Below, in pieces: positions 3,134 through 32,678 of a DNA stretch of 37,518 nt. The notes beneath the pieces were generated by a model. That model searched no databases. It was not told where the DNA came from and was given only the letters and a program-made list of their open reading frames with translations. Numbering within the stretch: position 1 is the first letter of the stretch; each line of letters starts with the position of its first letter. Location: positions 1 to 37,518 of IMG/VR virus record IMGVR_UViG_3300048839_000434, one strand, 5' to 3'. Made by a program: the position numbers and the translations under genes. Source of the stretch: a virus.

Positions 3134-3482
3134 CTCTTTGTCAGTCAAGAGCAGAGTTCAGACTGAGGGGGGCGTACTGGAAACGCTTGCAACCGAACAA
3201 GACCATGCCGCCTGCCAGGCGATAATGGCGAGTGCTTTGCTGGCTTGCCTTACTAAACCAGCGTGGAAGCGAGGCCGCAAGGGTAAGGCGGCAGTCGGTG
3301 CGGATAGACGTTAGGTGTAAATCCTAGCTAAGGCTTGACAGAAAGCCCAACACGCCGCAGGGAATGTCCTACCGGGTCAACGCCGGACGCTTCCATATGC
3401 CGTATGGCAGAATATTTTGATGATGTCGTTGCTATTGACGGTGGAATAGACACTAGGAGCGAGGCCGACTACCTCGCAAATT
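3134..3482 (+). ncRNA. Structured non-coding stretch upstream of tRNA-Gly, with a degenerate tRNA-like element
   Basis: No convincing protein frame is present. Simple hairpins are visible: CGCCT/AGGCG around 3210, GGCTT/AAGCC near 3332-3348, CCATA/TATGG near 3393-3407, and a perfect GCGAGG/CCTCGC stem (3459-3464 with 3472-3477) just before the tRNA. Bases 3247-3335 (89 nt) have tRNA-like geometry. An acceptor-like stem GCCTTA/TAAGGC is followed by TA at the position 8-9 equivalents. A five-pair stem around 3274-3292 follows, then an 18-nt variable-like segment and a T-arm-like TTAGG-TGTAAAT-CCTAG immediately before the 3' acceptor strand. The anticodon-like loop is 9 nt and no D-stem is evident, so it would be a decayed or non-canonical tRNA. 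Confidence 0.4.
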
Positions 3483-3554
3483 GCGGATATTGCGCAACGG
3501 TAGCGCCCCTGCCTTCCAAGCAGGTTTGTACGGGTTCAAATCCCGTTATCCGCT
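3483..3554 (+). tRNA. tRNA-Gly (anticodon UCC)
   Basis: Full cloverleaf by eye. The seven-pair acceptor is GCGGATA/TATCCGC (3483-3489 with 3547-3553), with discriminator T at 3554. The D-stem GCGC/GCGC closes the loop AACGGTA. The anticodon stem CCTGC/GCAGG has loop CTTCCAA, giving anticodon TCC at 3515-3517. The T-arm is ACGGG-TTCAAAT-CCCGT. CCA is not encoded. It reads GGA codons. It is the first of two tRNAs in a rightward non-coding stretch. Confidence 0.95.
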
Positions 3555-3628
3555 TTACGGTGCATGTGTCTAAAGTACACGGCCACAAGTACGGGCAACG
3601 GTGCCCCAAAGCGGTGGAATACCAAAGG

Positions 3629-3700
3629 CGGCTACTGCCTTGACCGACAAAGTAGCCGGACTCTTGCCGGTTGTTGCCGTAATGTGTGTAATCGGCTGCT
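3629..3700 (+). other. Mutually exclusive hairpins between the two tRNA genes
   Basis: AGTAGCCG at 3651-3658 can pair perfectly with CGGCTACT upstream (3629-3636) or, with one G-U pair, with CGGCTGCT downstream (3693-3700), which ends one base before tRNA-Thr. A third small hairpin (CCGG/CCGG near 3656-3670) lies between. The sequence shows only pairing potential; a processing or regulatory role is inference. The rest of 3555-3701 shows no gene. Confidence 0.4.
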
Positions 3701-3701
3701 T

Positions 3702-3776
3702 GCTTCCTTAGCTCCAATTGGCTAGAGCGCGCCCTTTGTACGGCCGAGGTTAGGGGTTCAAATCCTCTAGGAAGCT
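3702..3776 (+). tRNA. tRNA-Thr (anticodon UGU)
   Basis: The acceptor is GCTTCCT/AGGAAGC (3702-3708 with 3769-3775), with discriminator T. The D-stem is GCTC/GAGC. The anticodon stem CGCCC/GGCCG has one C-C mismatch and loop TTTGTAC, giving anticodon TGT at 3737-3739 followed by A37. The T-arm is AGGGG-TTCAAAT-CCTCT with one G-U pair. CCA is not encoded. It reads ACA codons. Confidence 0.92.
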
Positions 3777-3870
3777 TGAAAGCAGGGAACGACCGGATTT
3801 TAGCACCGGCCTGCCTGACGTGCTAGTTTCGGACTATACTAGCCTCGTGGCCCCGGAGCAACGGGGCATC
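3777..3870 (+). promoter_or_regulatory. Hairpin-rich leader before the ribbon-helix-helix gene
   Basis: Three hairpins are visible. The first is GCAGG/CCTGC enclosing an inner ACCGG/CCGG element (about 3781-3817). The second is GCTAGT/ACTAGC with a 10-base loop (about 3822-3843). The third is GCCCCG/CGGGGC with loop GAGCAA (about 3850-3867), which ends a few bases before the first ATG. No U-tract follows, so these are not ordinary terminators. The last stem could limit access to the ribosome site of the regulator gene. Confidence 0.4.
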
Positions 3871-3887
3871 TTATGAAAGGGGAGCTT

Positions 3888-4055
3888 ATGCCGAGAGAAA
3901 CGAAAAGCAAAAACGGCGAGCGGCTGATTGACCGCATGGTCATACTCGTAACGCCGGAGTTTAAGCGCAACTATCTTGAAATGTGCGCGCTGGCCGGACT
4001 AAACGCTAGCGAGCATATCCGCGCGCTGCTCGAAGATGATCTAGAAAATGCCTAG
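3888..4055 (+). CDS. Ribbon-helix-helix (Arc/CopG-like) DNA-binding protein (55 aa)
   Basis: First protein gene of the rightward block. The start is ATG 3888 behind AAAGGGGAG; an in-frame ATG at 3873 (5 residues longer) is the alternative. The basic N-terminus is followed by a short strand, RMVILVTPEFK, and two helices (RNYLEMCALAG, NASEHIRALLEDDL). This is the strand-helix-helix order of Arc/CopG/MetJ regulators, which bind operators as dimers through the strand. In this position it could regulate its own operon or the nearby divergent promoters. Its last 8 bases overlap the next gene. Confidence 0.65.
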   Translation: MPRETKSKNGERLIDRMVILVTPEFKRNYLEMCALAGLNASEHIRALLEDDLENA

Positions 4056-10177: not shown

Positions 10178-10207
10178 ATCATACTACGTTACGCCGTTAT
10201 CGTTCAA
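10178..10207 (-). promoter_or_regulatory. Possible internal promoter for the fibre gene
   Basis: Read leftward: TTGAAC at 10207-10202, 18-bp spacer, TATGAT at 10183-10178. It overlaps the end of the ejection-protein gene. The -35 is weak, so this is a moderate candidate. Confidence 0.45.
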
Positions 10208-12587
10208 GGTCTGGCGCTTGGCGCTTATCCTGCGCTTGCCTGCCGACTGCCGCAGCTGTCTTAGCCTGAACCGCCGAAAGTATCCATGTATCGAGCTGAT
10301 CGGTAGCCATTGGAAGCTTTACGGCTTTAGCGAACGACTGGAACGCGTTTGACCGTGCAAGCTCTTTAGCACGCGCCGGGCTGATGCTATTAGTTGTAGC
10401 CGCTTCTATAATGGCATCTTGCATAGCCTGGCTTCTAAACAATTTGCCTACGGCTTCAAGCTTTGCCTTTTCTCCGCGTGAAAGAGAATCGACTATGGCG
10501 TTTGACATGCCAGCGCCGACGGATGCGCCAAACGTGCCGCCGCCTAGCGTTCCACCTATTGCTGCTCCGCTTGCGCCTACGGCCGCGCGTCCTACCACGC
10601 TACTAAGCGCTTTTTCTATAAGGTTTTGAGCGGTCAATCCTTCAAGTATAGACTGATTAGCTTTGCCGGTAGTCAGTACTGCCGCGCGCGCATCGGTTAC
10701 GCGCTTAGACACTTCGTACAAGTCGCGAAGCATGGCGTCCGATTCTGGCCCTAGATTTTTTACTATCTGCTTGTATACTTCGGGATTCGCCCGCAAGCCT
10801 TGATAGACTTTTGTAAACTCGGAAAATCCAAAGTTGCCTTTAGTAGCGCCTGAACCTGAACGCGCTACGGATGCAAGCGCCGTCGCCGTTACTTCTTTTT
10901 TAAGGTCATCTGGTACGGATTCAAAGAGCCGAGTGAAAGCGCCAGTATCGCCTTTTGACGATGACGTTATAGCCATGCGCATTTTATCGGCTATCGAGCC
11001 GGAAAAGTCCTTGCCGTATAGGTTTACTATCTGCTTGCCTATTTCGCGCTCTTTACCGTACATGAGATTTGCCGATATGAGCTTTTCTTTAAGCGCTTCG
11101 TTGCCTATTTCGGCCACGCTATCAAGCTGATCTTCAGCCATGGCCCCGTATAGCCTCTTGAGCGCTCCGGCTTCCATGTTGCCATACGGTGAATCTTTTT
11201 TAGCGATAGCCTGCCCTATAAGCGCCTTTTCACGCTGTAGCCGCCCATAGGTTGTAGTCGGGTCGTTTACCATTTCAAGCAGGCGTTTTTCCTGCGCCGA
11301 CATACCGCCCTCGCCTACTTCCTGCGCGATATCGGCAAGCGTGGCTTTTGTGCTATTAAACGTCGCCGGGGTAGACTTGGGCACGGCCGCATCTATTTCG
11401 TCATAGAGCGCTTTCGCTTGCTCGCTTAATTCTTTTTTAGCCGCCATAAGCGAATCTTTGACGCGGGCAGAGGCAACGGCGGGGGCGGGAGCGCCTTCTA
11501 TAAACGTAGCGCCAAAGTCCTCGATAACTTCATCGGCACGCTCTACGGCTGATTTAACGGTATTCTGCCATGACGCTTCCTCGGCGCTACCGGCCACACT
11601 ACGGCCAAGCCCTGCGGCTGAACGTACTTGTGGCTTGTCCGAAAAGACATCGGCGGGTAATTCTATCCCAAGCCTGACGGCTGACTCTCTAGCTTTACGA
11701 TTATACAAAGCCATTTCAGCTATTGCTTGTCTAGCTTCTTTGTTCCCTGTGGCAGCCTTGTTCGCTAATTCTCCTATCGCGTCATCACTCAATTTTGTTG
11801 TTGGAACAAGTGCCGCGCTAGGGGATGCGAGTCGCGAACCAAGCGCACCGGCCACAAGCCCTATGCCCGCCTGCTGTAGCGGGTTAGCGCCCTGTTGCTC
11901 GGCTACTTTGCTAGCGCCCATTGATGCGGCGGAACCGGCTAACTCGGCGGCAGGTTGCGCGGCTAAAGTCTGGCCTATGCCCTGTAGCTTTGTACCCATG
12001 CCAAGAGCGGGAGCGCCCGCACTAAGCGCCGCGCCAGTGCCCAGTGAGGCGGCCCCTGAACCTAAACCCATGCCGACGGACTCTAGAACTTCCTGCGCTT
12101 TTGTCTGCGGGTCTTTTACGCCTAATGCGCTGAACATTACTTCAAGCCCCTGGCTCGGCGGTAACTGTTGCATCTCTGGAGGAAGCACCTTATTGAGTAG
12201 CACGGTAATCGGGTCGGCTATCATGGTAGCGCCGGACATAGCACCTTTAGTCAATCCGCGCGCTAGTACGCCCGCATTTTGCGGAAGCTCAGAGACTACT
12301 TGTCCGGCAAGCTGTAAGCCTGTCTGTTTTTTCGGAACGGTAGACGGCTCGGGCGATGTGATAGCCGAAGCGGACAATCTTGGCGTAGGGTCGCTAGGGT
12401 CTGGCGAGGCGTCAAGCATTGGTGCTTGTGCCTGCTCGGTGCCTAAGCCAAACGGCGCCGAAGTAAGACCTGAAGCCTTCATCTGTTTATACTGCTCGTA
12501 AAGGCGAGGATCATTCTTAGGCACATCGTCTGGGATGCCGGTTATCTTGGTTTTGTCTTTTGCCTCATAGGTGTATGTACCGTTCAA
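10197..12587 (-). CDS. Large internal virion / DNA ejection protein, gp16 position, TTG start (796 aa)
   Basis: The start is TTG at 12587, overlapping the previous stop as TTGA. It is a long Ala/Gly-rich protein. A disordered proline-rich N-terminus is followed by Gly-Ala-rich hydrophobic stretches (AGQTLAAQ, GAALSAGAPALGMG) and a central helical region with many Lys/Glu (about 330-620). Another Gly/Ala hydrophobic stretch (VVGRAAVGASGAAIGGTLGGG) follows near 680, and the end is basic. Such alternation is typical of P22 gp16-like proteins that leave the capsid and line a channel through the envelope. No transglycosylase motif was seen. Order after gp7- and gp20-like genes matches P22 16. Confidence 0.75.
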   Translation of the reverse strand: MNGTYTYEAKDKTKITGIPDDVPKNDPRLYEQYKQMKASGLTSAPFGLGTEQAQAPMLDASPDPSDPTPRLSASAITSPEPSTVPKKQTGLQLAGQVVSELPQNAGVLARGLTKGAMSGATMIADPITVLLNKVLPPEMQQLPPSQGLEVMFSALGVKDPQTKAQEVLESVGMGLGSGAASLGTGAALSAGAPALGMGTKLQGIGQTLAAQPAAELAGSAASMGASKVAEQQGANPLQQAGIGLVAGALGSRLASPSAALVPTTKLSDDAIGELANKAATGNKEARQAIAEMALYNRKARESAVRLGIELPADVFSDKPQVRSAAGLGRSVAGSAEEASWQNTVKSAVERADEVIEDFGATFIEGAPAPAVASARVKDSLMAAKKELSEQAKALYDEIDAAVPKSTPATFNSTKATLADIAQEVGEGGMSAQEKRLLEMVNDPTTTYGRLQREKALIGQAIAKKDSPYGNMEAGALKRLYGAMAEDQLDSVAEIGNEALKEKLISANLMYGKEREIGKQIVNLYGKDFSGSIADKMRMAITSSSKGDTGAFTRLFESVPDDLKKEVTATALASVARSGSGATKGNFGFSEFTKVYQGLRANPEVYKQIVKNLGPESDAMLRDLYEVSKRVTDARAAVLTTGKANQSILEGLTAQNLIEKALSSVVGRAAVGASGAAIGGTLGGGTFGASVGAGMSNAIVDSLSRGEKAKLEAVGKLFRSQAMQDAIIEAATTNSISPARAKELARSNAFQSFAKAVKLPMATDQLDTWILSAVQAKTAAAVGRQAQDKRQAPDLER

Positions 12588-13978
12588 AAGTCACCTCTCA
12601 CGATTGGCTCTTCGGCCGTGGCAGGGGCTGCTGCAGCTCCACCGGGTTGATATTTAGCCACTGATTTAGGGAACTCTCTGCGTAATCCAGCTTCATCGAG
12701 CGCGTCAATTTCGGCGTGTTCCGATGCAGGGCGAATTGATTTGATAAACGCTTTAAGCGCGCCAATGTCAGCGATAGGCGCAGGCGCGGCTGTAGTACCG
12801 TCGGCGGCTTGCGGTGCCGTATCGTCAGCTTTAAGCCCGAATACGTTGTCAGCGTTCAGGCCGTAGCTTTTAACCATAAAATCAAGCCCTTCTCGAACGC
12901 GCTTTTCGTGGTCTGTTGACGCTTGCATATATTGTTTGGAAAGAGCAACAAAGTCTTTTCGTTGGTCTGGCGTTAATATTTGGCCATTCTGTACGCGCGA
13001 GGCGGTAGCAAGTAACTTGCCCATAAGCCCAGCCGTATCTTGCGCTTTGGCAAACTCTGACTCACGTACTACAGATCCGGGGTCTATCATTTTCATAAAT
13101 GTGGTGACAAGCGCTAAGTCGCCAGCGCCGCTTGCCGACTGTGCAGACGTTTCAATGACATCGGCAAGGCGCAGCGATTCGTCATAACCCTTTGTCCGCG
13201 TGGTGTATTCTTTGTTAAGCGCAAGCTCAGAATTGAACTTCTTTTCAGGGTCAAGGCCACCGGCGGCGTTCATCGTTTCCAGGTCAACAGCAAGCTTTTT
13301 CGTCTCCGCGTCAAGCTTGCGAGTCTCGGCTAAAAACTTATTAGTTTGCGCTTCGGTATAGCCAATGTCAGCAAGCCGTTTCTTTATCACATCCGGCTCT
13401 GCGGCGGCTGCCCTTTGCTCTTCGCCAAGCTTTCCAAGCGCTTCCATAGCTTCCTTGCCGCCTGTCATGCCGGTTATGCTCATGGCGAACATATCTTTTA
13501 CGGCCTTAACGCCTTCCGGGCCAGATTGCGCCAAATCTAGCATTGACTGGTATCGCTTTGCGCTTTCGGTATCGCCTGCGTTCTTGGCCGCCTCTATGCG
13601 CTTTTCAATCATTGACAGCGATATTTCCGGCGCGCCCGATTGGAATCCGGCATAGATTGAAACGGTGTCATTGAGCGCTTGCCTCTGTTGCGCCTGGTCA
13701 AGCATATCCCACGATTCCCTAAACGATTTAGCCTGTTCAGGTGGTGACATATCGGCAAGCCTGCGGTAGTTTTCGTATGTCGGGTTTTCTCGCGCGGCAT
13801 TGAACGCTTCTTGTATTTGTGCGTCCTTAGCCGCCTTCTCTTGTGCCGCTAACGCCGCCGCCTCTCGTTGGTCGCGTACCTGGCCCATCTGGCCTAGCAT
13901 CGAACCGAATTGAAGCGTTTGCATCATCGAGTCCATAGGGTTTATAGCCTGTACTCCGTAGTTTATAGGCGCTGGCAT
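12584..13978 (-). CDS. Internal virion / DNA ejection protein, gp20 position (464 aa)
   Basis: ATG overlaps the previous stop as TAATG. The N-terminal MQTLQFGSMLGQMGQVRDQREAAALAAQEKAAKDAQ is a short hydrophobic start followed by a long helix. The remainder is almost all helical, rich in Ala, Glu, Lys and Gln, with TPR-like spacing in the first 150 residues and a disordered Ala/Pro linker near 395-415. P22 gp20 is 471 aa and sits at the same point between gp7 and gp16, so a structural and injection role is inferred from order and composition rather than from a strong motif. Confidence 0.72.
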   Translation of the reverse strand: MPAPINYGVQAINPMDSMMQTLQFGSMLGQMGQVRDQREAAALAAQEKAAKDAQIQEAFNAARENPTYENYRRLADMSPPEQAKSFRESWDMLDQAQQRQALNDTVSIYAGFQSGAPEISLSMIEKRIEAAKNAGDTESAKRYQSMLDLAQSGPEGVKAVKDMFAMSITGMTGGKEAMEALGKLGEEQRAAAAEPDVIKKRLADIGYTEAQTNKFLAETRKLDAETKKLAVDLETMNAAGGLDPEKKFNSELALNKEYTTRTKGYDESLRLADVIETSAQSASGAGDLALVTTFMKMIDPGSVVRESEFAKAQDTAGLMGKLLATASRVQNGQILTPDQRKDFVALSKQYMQASTDHEKRVREGLDFMVKSYGLNADNVFGLKADDTAPQAADGTTAAPAPIADIGALKAFIKSIRPASEHAEIDALDEAGLRREFPKSVAKYQPGGAAAAPATAEEPIVRGDF

Positions 13979-29995: not shown

Positions 29996-31251
29996 GCTCT
30001 GCCGTCTATCTCATAGAACTTTACATACTCCCTATGGAAAGTAACCGGAACAACGCCCTTTGCCCCGTCGCGGTTCTTTTTGACCAGTAGCCAGCTTGAT
30101 CGCTCGGCATGTTCGTCTTCGTCCTTTTTAGGCTTCGGGTGATAAATAAAGACTATTGCGTCGGCGTCTTGCTCTAGCTGCTTGGAATAGTCAAGGTCTG
30201 CCATTTCAGGCTCACGGCCTTCAGCATCTCGCTTTAACTGGCTTAGCCCGACGATAGGCACCTTTAGCTCACGGGCAAGCTGCTTTAATCCGCGCGACAC
30301 GGCGGCTACCTGCTCATGGATTGCCAGGCGTGAATCTTCCCATTGGATAATCTGGACGTAATCTATAAAAATTACTTTAACCTTGTAGAGCGTCACCATC
30401 TGCCGCGCTACGCTTTTAAGCTCGCCAAAGCGCACATTAGGCGCGTCATACAGGTATAGCGGGCTTGTGTCCGTCCGCTTGCCTAGCTCCATTAGGCTTG
30501 TAAAGTCTGCCGGAGCAAGTAGGCCGCTCATAATATGATTGCCCTGTATATGCCCTTCGCTTGCTATGGCGCGGGTAACAATCTCATTGTTCGATGACTC
30601 GGCGCTGATTATTCCCGTTGGTATGCCCTGGCTTATTGCGATATTACAAGCCATATTCAAAGCAAGCGCGCTCTTGCCGTCGCTTGGCCTGGCCCCAACG
30701 ATGATATACCGATCATCCTGGAAGCCTCCCGTAAGCTTGTCAAGGCCGGGTAGCCCCGTTCCTATCCCGGGTATCCTGCCCTTAAGCTTGAACCGCTCCT
30801 CAATCTTCCGGAACGCCTCGGGCATGACTTCGCCTATCCGCTGTATTTTTCTCGTCTGCCCGTTCGTGCCAAGCTCTAACAGTTCATTTTCGGCCATCTC
30901 AATTACTTCCGCTGGCGCAGTGGTAGCGCCAAGCTCGGTAAGCTTACGTCCTAAAGCCACAAGCCGATTGCGCTGGTAAGCGTCTATCAGCTTGCCTTCG
31001 TAGTACTTCCAATTAGCCGCGCTCGGTACTTTGTCCGATAGGTCGACGAGGTATATGGGGTCAATCTCTTTGTCTACGTCGCCTATGGCAATGTAGTCAA
31101 TCTTTACGGCCTTATCAGCGCAAGCGTGCATTGCCCGAAAAATGCGACGATTCGCGCCGTTGAAAAAATGTTGCTCGGTTATTGAAGTCTTGAAAATAAT
31201 ATCCGGGGCTAAAAGTATGCAGGCTAAATACGTCGCTTCGTGGTCGCTCAT
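29992..31251 (-). CDS. Replicative DNA helicase, DnaB-type (419 aa)
   Basis: Residues 1-130 form the helical N-terminal collar domain. The RecA-like domain has IGTGLPGLDKLTGGFQ, Walker A GARPSDGKS at 186-194, SAESSN (catalytic glutamate), Walker B KVIFIDYVQII near 291-301, and QLEQDADAIVFIYHP with NRDGAKG near the end. Length is a little below bacterial DnaB (471 aa) but normal for phages. It should unwind the fork as a hexamer, loaded with the help of the initiator two genes upstream. Coupled to the methyltransferase gene by ATGA. Confidence 0.92.
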   Translation of the reverse strand: MSDHEATYLACILLAPDIIFKTSITEQHFFNGANRRIFRAMHACADKAVKIDYIAIGDVDKEIDPIYLVDLSDKVPSAANWKYYEGKLIDAYQRNRLVALGRKLTELGATTAPAEVIEMAENELLELGTNGQTRKIQRIGEVMPEAFRKIEERFKLKGRIPGIGTGLPGLDKLTGGFQDDRYIIVGARPSDGKSALALNMACNIAISQGIPTGIISAESSNNEIVTRAIASEGHIQGNHIMSGLLAPADFTSLMELGKRTDTSPLYLYDAPNVRFGELKSVARQMVTLYKVKVIFIDYVQIIQWEDSRLAIHEQVAAVSRGLKQLARELKVPIVGLSQLKRDAEGREPEMADLDYSKQLEQDADAIVFIYHPKPKKDEDEHAERSSWLLVKKNRDGAKGVVPVTFHREYVKFYEIDGRA

Positions 31252-32678
31252 AACTTACCCTTAATCTGTCGAAATATTAGCTCGGATATTTGCGGCACTA
31301 TCGAGTTACCAAGGCATTTAAGTCTGTCCACCCGAGAGGGTATTTTATGCGCTACACGAGGGATGGCATCCTCCCAGCTATCTCCCGCCCAATTCGGCGC
31401 GCTGTCGAGTGCCAGAATCCGTGACACCATTTGCACAGTGTCTGGATATTCTCCGGTTGATTGTTTGCCTTGTTCTGGTCGATATGGTGAGCCTGTAGCC
31501 ATCGCGTCTCGCCGCAGGATTCGCAGGAAGTCGTCATCAACTTCCTTGCCCTCCACGAGTAGCCGTGCTTGGTCAATTCCGTTTTCGTATTGGCGCAAGA
31601 AAGAGAACAGAATCTCCGCTTGTTGAATGCGCTCAAATCCTCCAATCGCCCTCCGAAGCGTTTTCGATACATGGTCTGACCACAATGCTCGCAAGGCTTC
31701 GACTCTTCTTGTATTTTCTGCATTGCTTACTCCTCTACCGATACATCTGTCCAACCAAGAGGGTAGCCCATCAAGGCTTCGACCCACGTCGGGTTCAGTT
31801 GCCCACTGGGTTCCTGTGCATTCGTAAGAACTCCAAGCCCTGGACTCTTCCTGCGTATCGCTGCTGGACTCGCATTGTCCCTTCCGTCGTGACCCGTCGG
31901 CGTCGGCCACATTGCCTGCTGTTTCAATACCGCTCCGTGCAGATTGATGCCATGATTTCCCGCTATCACTTGCGGGCTGTTGTGGTTCGGGCCTCCGCTG
32001 ACCATGTTCACCGTTGGGGTAGGCCACATCATAGCCGCCATCTGTAGCCCTGGTCTTCCCGAGCTGTCGCGCTGATTCGGCCCGCCGTGCGTTCCTAGTG
32101 TCGATACTGGGGTAGGCAACAATCCAGATTCGTTCCCGCCTGTGGGGCGCTCCGACATCGGAAGCGCGTATATCCGACCATTCCGCATCATACCCGATTT
32201 CGGCAAGGCACCCGAGAACTCGATCAAGTCCCCGGTGAGTAAGCGCTCCGACGTTTTCCATGATTGCGTATCGTGGTCGTATTTCGCCAATGAGACGAGC
32301 GTACTCAAACCAGAGTCCGGAACGTTTTCCATCGATCCCGGCACCCTTACCGGCAACACTGATGTCCTGGCAGGGGAAGCCACCGGCGATGATAAATTCT
32401 CTGCAACACGAGTCGCCAGTCCATGAGCGCTCGCTGTCCCTGATCCCGAGAAATTCGGCCCTTTGTAATCGCTCTTGGTAGCAGTCGGCCACAAGCGCAT
32501 GACCATCGATCTTGCAGACGTCTCCAAGGGGAATAGCGTCGGGGAATCGTTTTCTGTAAACCTTGATTGCATAGTCGTCAACCTCCGAAAAATAATGTTT
32601 GTCGAACTTCATCCCGGCCCATTCCGCTCCGAGAGCGAAGCCGCCGATGCCAGCGAACAAGTCTAAAAAATATCTCAC
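31248..32678 (-). CDS. DNA (cytosine-5) methyltransferase, GTG start (476 aa)
   Basis: Motif I LFAGIGGF at 8-14; motif IV AGGFPCQDIS with catalytic C103; motif VI MENV at 140-143; motif VIII RRERIWIVAYP at 180-190; motif X LGNSIVPQ near 456-463. GTG at 32678 overlaps the initiator stop as GTGA. The long region between motifs VIII and X holds the target-recognition part, with EPDVGRSLDGLPSWLDR near 300. The enzyme should methylate C5 of cytosine, probably protecting phage DNA from host restriction. Unusually, about 1.2 kb of the gene also carries two good frames in a second register (31352-31723 and 31727-32572). Motifs on both sides of the overlap are in one frame, so the gene is not frameshifted. 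Confidence 0.92.
   Translation of the reverse strand: MRYFLDLFAGIGGFALGAEWAGMKFDKHYFSEVDDYAIKVYRKRFPDAIPLGDVCKIDGHALVADCYQERLQRAEFLGIRDSERSWTGDSCCREFIIAGGFPCQDISVAGKGAGIDGKRSGLWFEYARLIGEIRPRYAIMENVGALTHRGLDRVLGCLAEIGYDAEWSDIRASDVGAPHRRERIWIVAYPSIDTRNARRAESARQLGKTRATDGGYDVAYPNGEHGQRRPEPQQPASDSGKSWHQSARSGIETAGNVADADGSRRKGQCESSSDTQEESRAWSSYECTGTQWATEPDVGRSLDGLPSWLDRCIGRGVSNAENTRRVEALRALWSDHVSKTLRRAIGGFERIQQAEILFSFLRQYENGIDQARLLVEGKEVDDDFLRILRRDAMATGSPYRPEQGKQSTGEYPDTVQMVSRILALDSAPNWAGDSWEDAIPRVAHKIPSRVDRLKCLGNSIVPQISELIFRQIKGKL
31352..31723 (-). CDS. HNH endonuclease encoded inside the methyltransferase gene (123 aa)
   Basis: ATG 31723 has a perfect GAGGAG seven bases upstream. The N-terminal KPCEHCGQTMYRKRFGGRLED and RRFCSLSCAN form a zinc ribbon typical of phage HNH proteins. 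The catalytic part reads CESCGETRWLQAHHIDQNKANNQPENIQTLCKWCHGFWH (two parts): HH pair, N and final CxxCH, complete in order. It lies wholly within the methyltransferase gene, in another frame. Such a detailed domain match in a shadow frame is hard to explain by chance. It may be a homing or packaging-type nuclease. Coding in the methyltransferase frame over the same bases is also needed to join motifs VIII and X. Confidence 0.8.
   Translation of the reverse strand: MQKIQEESKPCEHCGQTMYRKRFGGRLEDLSAFNKRRFCSLSCANTKTELTKHGYSWRARKLMTTSCESCGETRWLQAHHIDQNKANNQPENIQTLCKWCHGFWHSTARRIGREIAGRMPSLV
31727..32572 (-). CDS. Overlapping-frame protein with PTPT and LNPTWVEALMGYPLGW motifs (281 aa)
   Basis: ATG 32572 has GGAGG nine bases upstream, inside the methyltransferase gene. 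The frame stays open for 281 codons and ends five bases before the HNH start. It contains WKTSERLLTGDLIEFSGALP, SGMMRNGRIYALP, three (L/M)WPT(A/P)T-like or LLPTP blocks and GQLNPTWVEALMGYPLGWTD. I recall proteins with this combination from many phages, where they are linked to cytosine methyltransferases; I cannot verify this here. ENVGALTHRGLDRVLG of the methyltransferase and KTSERLLTGDLIEFSG are the same bases in two frames. Whether it is made, or conserved only because methyltransferase is, is open. Confidence 0.55.
   Translation of the reverse strand: MQSRFTENDSPTLFPLETSARSMVMRLWPTATKSDYKGPNFSGSGTASAHGLATRVAENLSSPVASPARTSVLPVRVPGSMENVPDSGLSTLVSLAKYDHDTQSWKTSERLLTGDLIEFSGALPKSGMMRNGRIYALPMSERPTGGNESGLLPTPVSTLGTHGGPNQRDSSGRPGLQMAAMMWPTPTVNMVSGGPNHNSPQVIAGNHGINLHGAVLKQQAMWPTPTGHDGRDNASPAAIRRKSPGLGVLTNAQEPSGQLNPTWVEALMGYPLGWTDVSVEE

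Follow-up and report, generated by a model that had tools for sequence, protein, structure and literature searches.

The window, a 37,518-nucleotide stretch of viral DNA (positions 1 to 37,518 of IMG/VR record IMGVR_UViG_3300048839_000434), comes from a P22-like phage in which we recognised portal, tail-stabilisation protein, terminase, antirepressor and SSB genes. A methyltransferase locus on the minus strand, flanked by a Lin1244-type gene on one side and a DnaB-type helicase gene on the other, contains three open reading frames (ORFs). Frame A (31248..32678) has 476 codons and starts with GTG. Frame B, which is offset by +1 relative to frame A, encodes a protein of 281 amino acids (31727..32572) and then one of 123 amino acids (31352..31723). 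All three ORFs lie where an initial annotation of this DNA had placed them, and both of the ribosome-binding sites that it proposed are present: GGAGG (32582..32586), nine bases before the ATG of the 281-codon ORF, and GAGGAG (31728..31735), within the last codons of that ORF and ahead of the ATG of the 123-codon ORF. Since a second IMG/VR contig, IMGVR_UViG_3300048838_000679, carries an identical copy of the locus, an assembly error is unlikely. Elsewhere on the minus strand, two large neighbouring ORFs (10197-12587 and 12584-13978; 796 and 464 amino acids) had no Pfam match at E ≤ 0.001; judging from the adjoining structural genes, they may encode virion or injection proteins.

Frame A, which we call the alpha chain, begins with motifs I-VIII of a C5-methyltransferase (C5-MTase; residues ~4-191) and continues through a variable region and an extension to a motif X-like sequence, 'RLKCLGNSIVPQ', close to its C terminus. 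The Pfam DNA_methylase family matches residues 4-191 only (8e-41). The AlphaFold model of alpha is confident for residues 1-190 and for the last two helices, which contain motif X, and M.HhaI was its best match among solved structures, with M.HaeIII also among the best. The sequence GN..VP is conserved among alpha chains (alignment A3). We did not find motif IX in frame A, which therefore does not encode a complete single-chain enzyme. Thus, the initial description of frame A as an intact C5-methyltransferase is accurate for motifs I-VIII and X, but not for the enzyme as a whole.

The 281-codon ORF in frame B matches phrog_1008, annotated as 'DNA methyltransferase' (1.5e-31). Two single-chain relatives, L012 and L017, have a homologue of the C-terminal half of the 281-codon ORF fused in frame between motifs VIII and X, where canonical C5-MTases carry their target-recognition domain and motif IX; for this reason we read the ORF as a beta chain. 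It looks like the second chain of a split C5-MTase, one that bears motif IX as well as the target-recognition region. Frame A and this ORF most likely specify a single split enzyme. The putative motif IX is assigned to beta through the two single-chain relatives; as the AlphaFold model of beta alone was poor (pLDDT 59.7) and was left out of fold searching, this assignment depends on position, not on structure. Pfam did not align this part of beta, and motifs IX-X went unrecognised even in L012, a single-chain enzyme. A search of plasmids with beta returned four distant relatives only. The initial annotation was right that the 281-codon frame is unlikely to be open by chance, but missed its probable role as a second methyltransferase chain.

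Evidence that the alpha/beta overlap is under selection in both frames came from stop codons and from synonymous sites. Of the 158 beta chains that we collected, 137 lie in the +1 frame relative to alpha. Across 133 scored loci (31,176 overlapping codons), neither frame of the overlap contains a stop, compared with 457 expected in the beta frame and 958 in the alpha frame after synonymous codon shuffling, a result that is partly by construction as these loci were picked for an open beta frame. The unused third frame of the same loci contains 1674 stops, with 1608 expected. The synonymous-site test is free of this selection bias. In 4,825 divergent pairs of alpha chains, identity at four-fold degenerate sites is ~1.0 times expectation up to alpha residue 59, as for saturated sites, and rises to 1.1-1.9 times expectation from about residue 90, where beta overlaps. 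For the window by itself, 3.9 frame-B stops are expected in the 281-codon ORF when the synonymous codons of frame A are permuted, and the probability of finding none is 0.0006. The initial annotation had argued that a shadow frame of this length was very unlikely by chance, and had pointed to synonymous-rate suppression as a mark of dual coding and to frame-B stops in homologues as evidence against it. The homologues show the suppression inside the beta overlap, not before it, and the 133 that were scored have no such stops.

The 123-codon ORF matches HNH nuclease families (phrog_1271, 1.5e-13) and has an N-terminal Cys4 zinc ribbon. The zinc-ligand cysteines and the His and Asn positions of the HNH motif are invariant in an alignment of 14 relatives (alignment A1), in agreement with its initial identification as an HNH nuclease in which both the zinc ribbon and the HNH motif are complete. 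A search of the PDB with the HNH profile gave only a weak, IscB-derived match. Since the HNH ATG is three bases past the beta stop codon, translation of the nuclease is probably coupled to termination of beta. Sites resembling Shine-Dalgarno sequences precede 58% of the HNH genes, compared with 39% by chance, so initiation is not clear at every locus.

We gathered relatives by HNH sequence alone, and almost all of them are in frame +1 of a C5-MTase. All 83 distinct family members have a host frame that stays open through the HNH gene, with no stops where 374 are expected; from this set we left out L152, which has an HNH without an MTase, L068, whose match is weak, and L141, whose HNH is of another type. 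In the window itself, permuting the HNH codons predicts 5.2 stops in frame A (P(0) = 0.0005), and permuting frame A predicts 1.9 stops in frame B over the HNH stretch (P(0) = 0.09). L152, on a contig of the Rhizobiaceae group (3428-3932), is a natural control: its HNH is intact, no methyltransferase surrounds it and the corresponding frame has five stops, as expected when the constraint of the MTase frame is gone. With the stop counts in both overlaps and the four-fold sites in alpha/beta, the proposal that real dual coding is under selection is supported for both frame-B ORFs, and neither ORF is a chance shadow.

HNH genes of other types are found in comparable positions. A second type occupies the same site in L062 and L204-L209. 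In the Dcm gene of Staphylococcus phage CUB-EPI_14 (L141), an HNH gene is in the same relative frame and precedes Dcm's own motif IX. In L070 and L205, compared with the near-identical HNH locus of L062, alpha runs straight on into the beta end 'GGSLNPTWVDWLMGYPLFWTAI' through a frame change.

Comparison with an HNH-less relative, L063, revealed an empty site. Relative to L063, the window contains an insert of ~423 nt, a multiple of three, and ~37 bp of the empty site is present on both sides of the HNH gene. We place the inserted cassette at 31324..31746 (minus strand; 141 codons); its ends could shift by up to one repeat length, and they are approximate because L063 is a relative (its alpha is 60% identical) and not a near-identical allele. 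The upstream copy of the duplicated target (31747..31782, minus strand) encodes the beta end, EALMGYPLGWTD. The downstream copy, which is the older one (31324..31359, minus strand), would encode a beta-like end, YPLGWTDLN, in frame B, and leads into motif X in frame A. Only 25 of 105 loci have a significant flanking repeat, so the argument for duplication depends mainly on the comparison with L063. The HNH appears to be a mobile element of the homing type that has lodged in the methyltransferase gene and left it unbroken. Absorption of a nuclease gene into the methyltransferase had been one of two possibilities raised in the initial annotation, and it is supported by the host frame open in 83 of 83 members, the empty site and the duplication.

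In frame A, the cassette is read as an extension of ~141 residues before motif X, for which AlphaFold confidence is low. Identity among these extensions exceeds the level forced by the HNH frame by 12-28%. Some residues are clearly held: Trp in 74 of 79 cases (21 expected) and Ser in 70 of 83 (23 expected). The extension looks like a tolerated linker with a few residues of its own, on which the main demand is that it contain no stop.

The distribution of the HNH is patchy. On a tree of alpha chains from 123 loci, presence of the HNH requires 17 changes, at least eight of which are forced by well-supported branches, compared with ~40 when the labels are shuffled. The HNH is therefore clustered, yet not simply inherited vertically. 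The alpha chains nearest to that of the window, those of L065 (82% identity over 158 columns), L066 and L063, come from loci that lack the HNH. The correlation between the HNH and alpha trees is weak (Spearman 0.37), and of the 14 HNH splits that are supported, seven conflict with the alpha tree. Between the window and L027, the HNH is ~72% identical, while the recognition chain is only ~31% identical. Some of the changes in HNH presence could reflect losses, or recombination of whole methyltransferase 3′ halves, rather than homing.

In approximately 18 of the 83 loci, L027 and L029-L033 among them, alpha stops early while beta continues through the extension into motif X, leaving three staggered frames with the HNH in the third. 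Loci noted with this layout are L027, L029-L033, L035-L037, L039-L045, L047, L054 and L056. In them, the split has moved from the EcoHK31I-like form to an AquI-like one.

M.EcoHK31I has a similar layout, with its motifs divided between a large and a small chain much as we propose for alpha and beta. Its small chain is reportedly encoded inside the large chain, in another frame. In the part of PMC3404938 that describes this YGGCCR-specific enzyme (Lee, Kam and Shaw, 1995), motifs I-VIII and X are on the large chain and motif IX is on the small one. That account also puts the target-recognition domain on the large chain, whereas in the window the recognition region is apparently on beta, and it describes no HNH inside the gene, unlike the window. 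M.AquI is a C5-MTase split into motifs I-VIII and motifs IX-X (PMC3404938). The early-alpha-stop loci (class II: L027, L029-L033 and others) resemble it in that beta carries motif X; the window differs in keeping motif X on alpha.

Phage homing endonucleases such as the T4-like mob and seg genes and I-HmuI are found between genes, in introns or splitting a host gene. Like these, the window has a small nuclease gene, of HNH or similar type, associated with a conserved phage gene that it adjoins or lies within, and shows signs of horizontal spread, but its host frame passes uninterrupted through the nuclease gene. Another parallel is the ShiLan domain, described in 2025 as a hidden, out-of-frame homing HNH in a mycobacteriophage methylase (PMC11855218, PMC9957025). 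Both loci have an alternate-frame HNH in a phage methylase, an insert free of stops in the host frame and a disjunct distribution, and the start of the ShiLan insert resembles sequence past the insertion site, a repeat similar to that in the window (PMC11855218). However, the ShiLan host, gp65, is an N6_N4-type methylase and not a C5-MTase, and it is not a split two-chain enzyme. The ShiLan HNH has 195 amino acids in frame +2 and a GTG start without a ribosome-binding site, whereas the window HNH has 123 amino acids in frame +1 and an ATG preceded by such a site. The two HNH sequences are similar over 29 residues only (E = 0.002). Given these differences in host enzyme, reading frame and nuclease sequence, we rejected the idea that they are the same element.

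We favour the interpretation, to which we give a probability of roughly 0.7, that the locus encodes a split two-chain C5-MTase with a homing-type HNH element threaded through its gene. Two frames would yield three proteins: alpha, beta and the HNH. Alpha would supply the SAM-binding and catalytic motifs I-VIII together with motif X, beta would supply target recognition and motif IX, and the two are predicted to assemble into one active enzyme. The HNH element would have entered the methyltransferase gene with duplication of ~37 bp of target around it. Because the target was duplicated, beta would keep its C terminus; because the DNA of the element is stop-free in the methyltransferase frame, the element could persist, with alpha reading through the cassette and so gaining ~141 poorly ordered residues ahead of motif X. 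Beta and the HNH would each start from their own ribosome-binding site, and the HNH may cut empty alleles and spread by repair.

The initial annotation offered a different view, that a nuclease and a protecting methyltransferase on the same bases would be inseparable by recombination. The HNH would then be the cognate restriction enzyme of a compact restriction-modification unit and, in the family tested, it is almost always found with a C5-MTase. This idea is not supported by the comparisons above. HNH presence changes 17 times on the alpha tree, and the HNH and alpha trees conflict. Many methyltransferases of the same type, the window's nearest relatives included, lack the HNH. The 72% identity of the HNH contrasts with 31% for the recognition chain, the target is duplicated around the HNH, and an unrelated HNH type occupies the same site in other loci. 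We regard a restriction-modification unit as very improbable. Domestication, in which the HNH or the alpha extension has become a working part of the methyltransferase (for example, as a third subunit or in nicking for replication or recombination), is a somewhat better candidate, if still an unlikely one. It would explain extension residues held beyond what the HNH demands, such as the tryptophan, and one branch of the HNH has long been tied to the methyltransferase across host phyla. However, the excess identity of the extension is modest (12-28%), its model confidence is low and the HNH is often absent.

The weakest explanation is that the frame-B ORFs are chance shadows kept open by base composition and the constraint on frame A. 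The HNH stretch in the window alone, given frame A, is compatible with this (P = 0.09). We nonetheless rejected it on the stop-codon and synonymous-site tests, as hundreds of stops are expected and none occur over 133 loci for beta and 83 for the HNH, and synonymous-site conservation is raised. The complete HNH with its invariant catalytic residues and the ribosome-binding sites also argue against it, and we consider its chances negligible.

Both halves of the favoured arrangement, a split methyltransferase with a threaded HNH element, have precedents: M.EcoHK31I for the split overlap and the ShiLan domain for the hidden HNH. New are the way the two are combined, the host enzyme, frame offset and nuclease involved, and the breadth of the distribution. 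We found no description of an HNH in an overlapping two-chain methyltransferase in the literature searched, which included few subscription journals and no preprints.

A comparable arrangement is present outside methyltransferases. In viral contigs L057 and L059, and in the related L214, L216-L220 and L222, the terminase large subunit contains an intein (Pfam Intein_splicing, 9e-14 and 2.5e-14) with an HNH_3 gene (1.6e-17) on the same strand but in another frame, and the host frame is open for more than 700 codons. In relatives L223-L228, the open host frame is at the opposite offset. Since out-of-frame nucleases are found in split C5-MTases (two or more HNH types), in the monomeric Dcm of a Staphylococcus phage, in the ShiLan amino-methyltransferase and in terminase inteins, such threading may have arisen several times. 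We suggest, at a little under even odds, that it offers homing nucleases a general option in place of introns and inteins, here stacked on an enzyme that is already dual-coded.

Gene callers discard long overlaps on the same strand. The GenBank entry for Komagataeibacter phage phiKX1 (L143) lists neither alpha nor a complete HNH gene; the annotation of Staphylococcus phage CUB-EPI_14 misses the HNH inside Dcm, and that of Streptomyces phage Heather (L213) calls beta ~400 bases late.

If the threading interpretation is true, ~1.4 kb of this phage genome uses two frames to encode three working proteins. With an empty site, a filled site and a constant frame offset to compare, homing can be tested directly. 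If the genes are real, split overlapping C5-MTases would be common in phages and not a curiosity, and mobile nucleases would be able to inhabit a conserved gene without splicing.
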